64,000 nucleotides of DNA, from the NCBI GenBank assembly GCA_030018135.1, contig JASEGJ010000001.1:78298-142297 (forward strand), written 5' to 3'. The notes beneath the pieces were generated by a model that was not told where the DNA came from, searched no databases, and saw only the letters and a list, made by a program, of their open reading frames with translations. This document shows positions 16,841 through 39,740 of the stretch, in pieces (the first letter of the stretch is position 1; the number at the start of each line of letters is the position of its first letter). A program made the translations under genes and the position numbers. This DNA is from Candidatus Hodarchaeaceae archaeon. GTDB lineage: Archaea; Hadarchaeota; Hadarchaeia; Hadarchaeales; Hadarchaeaceae.

Positions 16841-16941
16841 CACATAGGTAGGAAATGGCTGAAAACTTTTTGTATTTATTTTTTTCGTCATTTTAAATTC
16901 ATCACCCCCTGATTTAAGGCTTTCGAGTTTTAAAAAGGAGG

Positions 16942-17042
16942 CGCCCCGGGCGGGATTTGAACCCGCGTCGCCGGCTCGACAGGCCGACATGATTGGCCTT
17001 CGGGCTCAAAGCTCGAATTAGACCCGACTACACTACCGGGGC
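16942..17042 (-). tRNA. tRNA-Asp (anticodon GTC) with a D-loop intron
   Basis: The gene is 101 nt long because a 26-nt intron (17018-16993) lies in the D loop just after A21. The intron fits a bulge-helix-bulge structure: 4-bp helix GGTC:GGCC, bulges TAA and AAT, inner stem TTCG:CGAA, with cuts after the second base of each bulge. After removal the D arm reads GTGT-AGTCGGGTCTA-TCAT. Acceptor GCCCCGG/CCGGGGC, discriminator G and loop CTGTCGA (anticodon GTC) agree with tRNA-Asp. CCA is not encoded. The intron boundary is predicted from structure and has not been tested. Confidence 0.93.
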
Positions 17043-17840: not shown

Positions 17841-17967
17841 TGGGCTGGCAGCGTCCTAGGGCTCCCGCACCCTCTCGGAGTGCAGTACTGCCTAGATCGC
17901 TGGCGGGCTTATCTTCGGCGTTCGGAATGAGAGCCGGAGTTTCCCCGTCGCTATGGCCGCCAACCCA
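17841..17967 (-). rRNA. 5S ribosomal RNA
   Basis: A 127-nt gene recognised from archaeal 5S sequence blocks on the minus strand: GGCGGCCATAGCGACGGGG, CATTCCGAACGCCGAAG, TTAAGCCC-like AAGATAAGCCCGCCAGCG, and AGTACTGCA. Helix I forms between the first 12 bases (TGGGTTGGCGGC) and the last 12 (GCTGCCAGCCCA). It stands apart from 16S/23S, neither of which is in this window, and follows tRNA-Tyr on the same strand with its own TATA box. Confidence 0.92.
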
Positions 17968-18073: not shown

Positions 18074-18205
18074 TGGTCCCGCGGGCCGGATTTTCAGTGG
18101 CTCTGCCACGTTTGAACCGGCGACATGTCGGTACCTATCTTTTGGGTCTTTGGCCCGCCTCACGGCGAACAGCCGACCACTCTAACCAGGCTGAGTTACC
18201 GCGGG
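18074..18205 (-). tRNA. tRNA-Tyr (anticodon GTA after splicing) with three introns; CCA encoded
   Basis: The precursor reads as GTT in the anticodon loop, but C1:G72, A73 and the splicing structure identify tRNA-Tyr. Intron 1 (18168-18150, 19 nt) lies between positions 35 and 36 and splits the anticodon: 4-bp helix GGCT:GGCC, bulges GTT and AAA, outer stem GGTC:GACC, inner hairpin CGCC-GTGA-GGCG. Its removal creates loop CTGTAGA. Intron 2 (18147-18133, 15 nt) is then at 37/38 with helix CTGT:ATAG and bulges AGA/GTA. Intron 3 (18110-18091, 20 nt) is in the T loop with helix TTCA:TGAA, bulges AAC/AAT and inner stem GTGGC:GCCAC, restoring TTCAAAT. The mature product is 75 nt with all stems perfectly paired, plus CCA. 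Confidence 0.88.
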
Positions 18206-18242: not shown

Positions 18243-19349
18243 TCAGAAAAAATCATGTAACCTTCGAATCGCATCGAGCTTTTCCCTTCGCTCGAGCTTA
18301 GCGCCATCGAGCGCTCTCTCTAAAATTTCGGTGGTTCGCTGATACGTCGCCTTGTCGACGGGATAGGGCACGCCGTCCTTGCCCCCGTGCGCGAAGCTAA
18401 AACGAATGGGATCCCGCCAAGAGGGCGGCTTGCCGTAAATCAGGTCCGAAACCAAGGCCAAGGCCCTTATCGTCTTCGGCCCTATTCCCTGGATGGCGAC
18501 CAGTTCCTCGTAATTTGAAGGCTGTAGCTCATAAGCACGCTGCAGCGCGGCCATTGTCCGCTCGGTCAACTCTGTAATTCCGTGCTGAGTTGGCATGATG
18601 AGGGTTAGAACTTGAGGCGAGCGCGCTAGGTATTCATCGAGCGACCGCTGTTCTGCCTCTCGAACGTAAACTACTACCCGCCTCGGATCGTCGCGCACGA
18701 GATCTAAACTGGCCTTTCTCGTTTCCTCGCTCTCATGCGCAGTCATATCAAGCACGAGGTCTTCTCTACGATCTCCAGCGATGCCCGAGTGCGGCTCCTC
18801 GACGAAGCTGCGGACGCCCTCGGAGAGCCAGTGATAGCGCCTCGCCAGCCTATCGTGCATACCCTGTTGCACGACCGCCCAGTCGCCGTCCTCGCTGAGC
18901 ACGAAGCAGTGATGGTAGAGCTGGTAGCCGTCCTGCACGCATGCGTTGTCCACCTTGGCCGCCATCCGGCTAGCGTATTTTAGTCTCTCAATCTTTTGAG
19001 AGGATATGGAAAAGACATCGCCGAGCTTCTCTATCTCGCTGGGGGTTCGCCTCGAGACCCTACCCTTCCCCCCGCACACCGCGATGCCCAGCTCATCCGG
19101 CCTTATCGCCTCCTTCAGCGCGCCCATTGTAACGGTGCTCAGTCCCGATGAATGCCAATCATATCCTAACACACAACCAAATGCTTGAAGGAAAAAAGGG
19201 TCGCCCAACCTCCGGAGGAACTCTTGCTTACCGTACTCGTGGACGATAATTTTACTTGTAGCTCCAGCTAGCCTTCTCATTCGGCTGAAAAGCCACGGGG
19301 GGCACCTGCCACCATGCAACGGCAGCTCAGCGATGCCGGTCCTTTTCAT
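18243..19349 (-). CDS. DUF763 domain protein
   Basis: A 368-residue protein of the DUF763 family, recognised by its N terminus MKRTGIAELPLHGGRCPPWL and by the block VLGYDWHSSGLSTVTMGALKEA near residue 61. A short helix-hairpin-helix-like segment, LVAIQGIGPKTIRALALVSDLIYG, lies near residue 275 and suggests contact with DNA or another nucleic acid. The family occurs in many archaea and some thermophilic bacteria; its function is unknown to me. Two 18-bp palindromes lie between this gene and the winged-helix gene at 19561, upstream of this start, and could be its operator sites. Confidence 0.85.
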   Translation of the reverse strand: MKRTGIAELPLHGGRCPPWLFSRMRRLAGATSKIIVHEYGKQEFLRRLGDPFFLQAFGCVLGYDWHSSGLSTVTMGALKEAIRPDELGIAVCGGKGRVSRRTPSEIEKLGDVFSISSQKIERLKYASRMAAKVDNACVQDGYQLYHHCFVLSEDGDWAVVQQGMHDRLARRYHWLSEGVRSFVEEPHSGIAGDRREDLVLDMTAHESEETRKASLDLVRDDPRRVVVYVREAEQRSLDEYLARSPQVLTLIMPTQHGITELTERTMAALQRAYELQPSNYEELVAIQGIGPKTIRALALVSDLIYGKPPSWRDPIRFSFAHGGKDGVPYPVDKATYQRTTEILERALDGAKLERREKLDAIRRLHDFF

Positions 19350-30031: not shown

Positions 30032-30154
30032 TGGTGGGGTCGCTGGGATTCGAACCCAGGTCCCTGGCTTTTTTGCCCGACCTTGTCCCATTTGGCAGAC
30101 CATTGAGAACTTGATCTTAAGCCAGAAGGATAGGCCAAGCTACCCCACGACCCC
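30032..30154 (-). tRNA. tRNA-Pro (anticodon TGG after splicing) with two nested introns; CCA encoded
   Basis: Acceptor GGGGTCG/CGACCCC, discriminator A and the D arm GGGTAGCTTGGCCTATCC match archaeal tRNA-Pro. Intron 1 (30118-30091, 28 nt) lies between positions 33 and 34: helix TGGC:GCCA, bulges TTA and AAT, inner stem AGATCA:TGGTCT. Its removal creates the loop sequence TTTGGG. Intron 2 (30086-30070, 17 nt) lies at 37/38: helix TTTG:CAAA, bulges GGA and AAA. The 5' strand of that helix, TTTG, does not exist until the first intron has been removed and exons joined. The final loop is TTTGGGA and the mature tRNA is 75 nt. Read unspliced, the gene looks like an odd tRNA-Leu. Confidence 0.9.
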
Positions 30155-31510: not shown

Positions 31511-31618
31511 TGGAGCCCCGGGTGGGCTTTGAACCCACGACCTACTGATCGCTTGCCGCCTGGTTACAAGTTTCGACAGCTCACCTTCAGTCGCTCTACC
31601 AGGCTGAGCTACCGGGGC
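31511..31618 (-). tRNA. tRNA-Thr (anticodon TGT) with two introns; CCA encoded
   Basis: Acceptor GCCCCGG/CCGGGGC with discriminator T, as in archaeal tRNA-Thr. Intron 1 (31587-31572, 16 nt) lies between positions 30 and 31 in the anticodon stem: helix CGAC:GTCG, bulges TGA and AAA. Intron 2 (31564-31550, 15 nt) is at 37/38: helix CTTG:CAAG, bulges TAA and CGA, inner stem CC:GG. The anticodon stem ACTGA:TCAGT that supports the second structure is complete only after removal of the first. The final loop is CTTGTAA and the mature tRNA is 74 nt, followed by encoded CCA. Confidence 0.92.
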
Positions 31619-33787: not shown

Positions 33788-33906
33788 TGCCGGGGGCGGG
33801 ACTCGAACCCGCGATCTCAGGATTTCTCACATCATGGTTGATCAGCACTCACAGCCAGTGGTTTGGGCTATGAGTCCTGCGCTTTAACCAGCTAAGCTAC
33901 CCCGGC
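33788..33906 (-). tRNA. elongator tRNA-Met (anticodon CAT) with a 45-nt intron
   Basis: Acceptor GCCGGGG/CCCCGGC, discriminator A, anticodon stem CAGGA/TCCTG and final loop CTCATAA indicate elongator tRNA-Met; the G1:C72 pair argues against the initiator. The intron (33868-33824) is at the canonical 37/38 position, with helix CTCA:TGAG and bulges TAG and AAA. The intron can also fold a nine-pair stem using a second TGAG, and its inner stem is weak. CCA is not encoded. The mature length is 74 nt. Confidence 0.9.
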
Positions 33907-39643: not shown

Positions 39644-39740
39644 GCGGCCGTGGTCCAGCCTGGTTAGGGCGTTAAGCGCCGCCAAAGGACCCAGGCTCCC
39701 CAAGCCTGTGGCGCGGGTTCGAATCCCGCCGGCCGCACCA
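39644..39740 (+). tRNA. tRNA-Gly (anticodon CCC) with a D-loop intron; CCA encoded
   Basis: Acceptor GCGGCCG/CGGCCGC with discriminator A and encoded CCA. A 20-nt intron (39667-39686) follows A21 in the D loop: helix TGGT:GCCA, bulges TAG and AAG, inner stem GGCG:CGCC. Splicing rebuilds the D stem GTCC:GGAC, which is otherwise impossible. The anticodon stem CAGGC/GCCTG encloses TCCCCAA, so position 33 is C rather than the near-universal T. The mature length is 74 nt. The intron position is the same as in tRNA-Asp. Confidence 0.9.

Follow-up and report, generated by a model that had tools for sequence, protein, structure and literature searches.

The minus strand of the 64,000-nucleotide stretch of DNA analyzed here (the window) very probably carries, judging from its sequence, a functional tRNA-Tyr(GUA) gene that its Hadarchaeota host has in a single copy and that is interrupted by three bulge-helix-bulge (BHB) introns. 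Removal of the introns (19, 15, and 20 nt) leaves a 75-nt tRNA with anticodon GTA, in which the stems of 7, 4, 5, and 5 bp are all paired, as originally predicted. The parts of the gene and its neighbors are listed in Table 1, together with other tRNA genes of the window. The host genome is a Hadarchaeota MAG of 1.1 Mb in 45 contigs, ~93% complete, and the upstream DUF763 protein has its closest matches in Hadesarchaea MAGs (80-83% identity over the best segments) and in Ca. Hadarchaeum yellowstonense (68%).

Table 1. Features of the window discussed in the text (positions counted from the first nucleotide of the window)
Feature	Position	Strand	Basis or remark
tRNA-Tyr gene, then CCA	18205-18077, CCA to 18074	minus	direct sequence reading
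Exon 1 (1-35): 5' side of acceptor stem, D arm, G34 and U35 of the anticodon	18169-18205	minus	near-identical in 21 relatives
Intron 1, 19 nt, U35/A36 junction, inside the anticodon	18150-18168	minus	strict BHB; also in G002, G003, G006, G022
Exon 2, A36 and G37, 2 nt	18148-18149	minus	sequence and splice search
Intron 2, 15 nt, canonical 37/38	18133-18147	minus	relaxed motif without inner helix
Exon 3 (38-59): 3' side of anticodon stem, variable loop, 5' side of T stem, first part of T loop	18111-18132	minus	
Intron 3, 20 nt, 59/60, T loop	18091-18110	minus	strict BHB; shared by 8 of the 22 genes in Table 2
Exon 4, positions 60-73, including G72 and discriminator A73	18077-18090	minus	
CCA, genome-encoded	18074-18076	minus	sequence reading
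5S rRNA gene, just downstream	17843-17964	minus	similar downstream sequence in many relatives
DUF763 protein (PF05559), upstream neighbor	18243-19349	minus	
tRNA-Asp(GTC)	16942-17042		26-nt D-loop intron; ARAGORN calls an intronless gene at 16940-17012
tRNA-Pro(TGG)	30035-30154		introns at 33/34 and 37/38
tRNA-Thr(TGT)	31514-31618		introns at 30/31 and 37/38
tRNA-Met(CAT)	33788-33906		45-nt intron at 37/38
tRNA-Gly(CCC)	39644-39737		D-loop intron

Splice motifs of the tRNA-Tyr gene

All three introns have a 4-bp central helix and two correctly spaced 3-nt bulges. Intron 1 (TCGCCGTGAGGCGGGCCAA) is framed by an outer helix GGTC:GACC, in which positions 26-29 pair with G37 and the three nucleotides that open intron 2. 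Its central helix GGCT:GGCC includes one U.G pair, the bulges are GT/T and AA/A, and the inner hairpin is CGCC-GTGA-GGCG. Intron 3 uses the T stem as outer helix, followed by a central helix TTCA:TGAA, bulges AA/C and AA/T, and an inner hairpin GTGGC-AGA-GCCAC. Both had been put forward as BHB introns, at 35/36 and in the T loop, and both motifs proved to be strict. Intron 2 (ACCCAAAAGATAGGT) lies exactly where it had been placed, at the canonical 37/38 position, but it is a relaxed motif rather than a full BHB. Its central helix is CTGT:ATAG, with bulges AG/A and GT/A; the anticodon stem serves as outer helix, and an inner helix is nearly absent (1 bp).

An independent splice search was performed with a finder written for this analysis, whose rules comprise only BHB geometry and the cloverleaf; its best solution at the locus consists of exactly these three introns and anticodon GTA. 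When the bases within each intron were permuted with the exons kept fixed, an equal motif arose in 417 (intron 1), 6580 (intron 2), and 54 (intron 3) of 400,000 trials. The comparison with relatives described below is stronger evidence than these shuffle statistics. Two observations speak against the three-intron model: the MFE structure predicted for the complete precursor favors an alternative inner hairpin (-55.6 versus -50.3 kcal/mol for the exact BHB), and the 37/38 intron, which has no proper inner helix, has in most relatives a central helix mismatched at U33.

Variation of tRNA-Tyr introns across the Hadarchaeota

We found 21 further Hadarchaeota tRNA-Tyr genes, giving 22 with the window gene, from about twenty related species. 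Their spliced bodies are almost identical and carry anticodon GTA, yet each gene has between none and three introns, drawn in differing subsets from six positions (Table 2). The 37/38 intron is present in all examined genes except two, whereas the 35/36 intron occurs in five and the others read GTA uninterrupted. For the variable-loop (43/44) introns of G002, G018, G020, and G025, which have imperfect central helices, the parse was made by hand instead of by the solver.

Table 2. Intron positions in 22 Hadarchaeal tRNA-Tyr genes
Introns	Genomes
35/36, 37/38, 59/60	window genome, G003, G006
35/36, 37/38, 43/44	G002
37/38, 43/44, 59/60	G008, G013
37/38, 59/60	G004, G010, G014
37/38, 43/44	G018, G020, G025
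9/10, 37/38	G001
22/23, 35/36	G022
37/38 alone	G007, G012, G015, G021, G023, G024, G026
none	G027, the most distant member

The helices of the 35/36 intron are kept through paired changes in G006 and G022, and its inner helix shows such changes across G002, G003, G006, and G022. In intron 3, as in intron 1, substitutions on both sides of the inner helix preserve its pairing. On an RpoB tree, which has open forks and leaves out G024 and G026, the minimum numbers of changes are five for the 35/36 intron, four for 59/60, two for 43/44, and one for 37/38, gains and losses being indistinguishable. Such a series, with none to three introns at six positions in an almost unchanged tRNA, makes the gain, loss, and ordering of introns directly studiable.

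Isotype and alternative readings of the locus

The gene has C1:G72 and A73 in addition to the GTA anticodon. These identity elements fit Tyr, as had been argued, in contrast to the tRNA-Asn(GTT) of Hadarchaeote G027, which has G1:C72 and G73. Because relatives with the same body and no 35/36 intron read a contiguous GTA, the isotype is settled as Tyr despite the GTT of the unspliced loop. Neither BLAST nor a tRNA-Tyr covariance model found a second tRNA-Tyr in the MAG, although the missing part of the genome could hide one.

The original prediction warned that the locus could be miscalled as tRNA-Asn(GTT), and rightly so. A valid rival motif gives that anticodon. With a single 34-nt 37/38 intron (TC/GCC...GGT/A) plus the T-loop intron, CTGT:ATAG again forms 4 bp on an outer helix of 5 bp, and the result is an Asn-like GUU on the same body; this parse scores 89 versus 96. 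A BLAST search with a distant Hadarchaeal Asn gene located no tRNA-Asn(GTT) elsewhere in the genome, which would suit this parse, but such a gene may itself be multi-intron or lie in the missing part of the MAG. The GUU parse would place C at position 37 of a body with C1:G72 and A73, it would leave the genome without a tRNA-Tyr, its equivalent in G003 would read GTG, and it disagrees with the GTA of relatives without intron 1. The intron-1 BHB fold is also the more stable of the two, with an advantage of 4.4 kcal/mol (37 °C) to 5.3 kcal/mol (75 °C). We therefore regard it as very improbable. Even less credit is due to the idea of a pseudogene or degenerate tRNA copy. Standard tRNA finders do miss the unspliced gene (ARAGORN, and the Rfam tRNA model at gathering score), but the cloverleaf is fully paired and followed by an encoded CCA, its mature sequence has been conserved among the 22 Hadarchaeal genes, and no other tRNA-Tyr was found in the genome.

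A milder departure would keep the tRNA-Tyr and its mature RNA but have the anticodon-loop introns cut in shifted registers. The next exon begins with the same ACC as intron 2, so that several registers give the same product, and the 37/38 motifs are weak in most relatives. Nevertheless, the 35/36 and 37/38 registers given in Table 1 yield 4-bp central helices and 3-nt bulges, and the best solutions found use them; shifted cutting thus appears unlikely. For annotation, the practical consequence of a tRNA-Tyr gene with three introns is that automated tools would miss it or could label it tRNA-Asn.

Predicted order of splicing

From the motifs, the paired product, and the conservation seen in the sequences, we infer the following course of maturation. 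GGUC (26-29) would pair with GACC (G37 and the start of intron 2), framing the 35/36 intron as a full BHB; the tRNA splicing endonuclease would excise its 19 nt, and ligation of U35 to A36, which would be of the RtcB type as in archaea generally, would create GUA. The anticodon stem could then pair normally, and excision of the 15-nt intron 2 from 37/38 would follow once its AUAG has paired with CUGU (32-35). Removal of the T-loop intron, whose BHB is built on the T stem and does not depend on the others, could occur at any time. A single α4-type EndA would make all three excisions.

Intron 2 had been predicted to become removable only after intron 1. This holds for the correct product: since the right G37/intron 2 junction depends on the joining of U35 to A36, intron 1 has to go first. 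It does not hold for the motif itself, since CTGT:ATAG can form earlier and define the 34-nt intron, giving GTT with C37. Such mis-splicing would put an Asn anticodon on a Tyr body. The 35/36 intron is not nested by necessity, because G022 has this intron, with one outer base pair only, in the absence of any 37/38 intron. Pseudouridine 35 in archaeal tRNA-Tyr is made by aPus7 or a guide RNA (PMC6313347); as intron 1 splits the modification site U35/A36, this modification may have to wait for the first splice.

Introns in other tRNA genes of the genome

We decoded 35 tRNA genes with the solver, a partial set that came from searches and selected stretches of the genome. Introns interrupt 25 of these genes. 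They number about 36, of which some 23 are non-canonical, and the outer helix is nearly absent from several of those in D arms. A tRNA-Phe(GAA) gene (L180:1342-1522, contig C10:19634-19814) has four introns, in the D loop and at 22/23, 30/31, and 37/38; the maximum per tRNA gene given in reviews is three. The four are identical in placement in G008 (L214) and G013 (L213), and none is present in G007, G012, or G026. A second anticodon-interrupting intron, of 30 nt at 34/35, occurs in a tRNA-Glu(TTC) gene of the same genome (L024:1497-1601, contig C40). Two tRNA 3' halves, each consisting of a T arm and an acceptor 3' strand, lie at L165 ~1501 (C1:19178) and L003 ~2339 (C14:2367), with no matching 5' half within 230 nt. 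They are candidates for a split tRNA, a long intron, or an integration remnant.

A single short splicing endonuclease gene

The host genome contains one PF01974 and one PF02778 match, both in the same 179-aa EndA gene, and every Hadarchaeota genome with a PF01974 match has exactly one. In many other archaea the same search found two genes or a fused pair, so it would also have detected ordinary β subunits in Hadarchaeota. EndA aligns end to end with the α4 enzyme of M. jannaschii (1A79) and lacks the insertion of the A. pernix enzyme. With a single short catalytic gene, no β gene, and no crenarchaeal loop insertion, the enzyme is of the α4 type, and gene number and length suggest a homotetramer. 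The EndA gene (L146:362-2013 region) adjoins a gene that, judged by eye, resembles a tryptophanyl-tRNA synthetase.

Reviews associate α4 and α′2 enzymes with a small number of canonical introns (PMC4090602, PMC4033280), although an α′2 enzyme can excise a relaxed 37/38 intron from full-length pre-tRNA (PMC6379350). The window tRNA-Tyr fits within α4 limits, as introns 1 and 3 are strict and the relaxed intron 2 lies at 37/38. The rest of the genome's introns fit these limits less easily. Where the crenarchaeal and ARMAN loops lie, EndA has a conserved G-K-P-L-(S/T/A)-G-G-(K/R) stretch, in a loop one residue longer than that of the basal relative G027. The stretch is missing from G027, the genome with an intronless tRNA-Tyr. 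We hypothesize that this stretch widens EndA specificity. A fuller version, which we offer tentatively and with some doubt, is that a short lysine-bearing loop takes the role of the crenarchaeal/ARMAN loop and may allow one α4-type EndA to handle many non-canonical, some relaxed, introns, up to four per gene. If so, Hadarchaeota would have reached broad splice-site recognition by a third and minimal route, and would depart from the published association of intron diversity with endonuclease type. Because this intron-dense lineage has an endonuclease encoded by one gene, the proposed co-evolution of splicing enzyme and intron diversity can be tested with a simple enzyme.

Comparison with known systems

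Our literature search found no paper on Hadarchaeota tRNA introns. The type of gene is already known, as three introns per gene and nested BHB introns have been described, chiefly in Thermoproteales (PMC4390854, PMC3978253, PMC8450103); the surprise is that intron-dense Hadarchaeota have only one short α4-type endonuclease. They resemble Thermoproteales such as Pyrobaculum and Thermofilum in their multi-intron tRNA genes (Sugahara 2007/2008, per PMC4390854 and PMC4033280). However, Thermoproteales are described with a two-gene (αβ)2 endonuclease bearing the crenarchaeal loop, whereas Hadarchaeota have one short gene without the insertion. The Asgard Atabeyarchaeia and Freyarchaeia are likewise intron-dense, with introns in 92-95% of tRNA genes, many non-canonical and over half multiple (PMC11291895). 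They belong to a different phylum, and their likeness to Hadarchaeota is at the level of the tRNA set, not gene by gene. In tRNA-Thr(GGU) of Caldiarchaeum, intron presence also varies among close relatives at one locus, as it does in Hadarchaeal tRNA-Tyr; in Caldiarchaeum the variation has been linked to mobile elements (PMC3293823).
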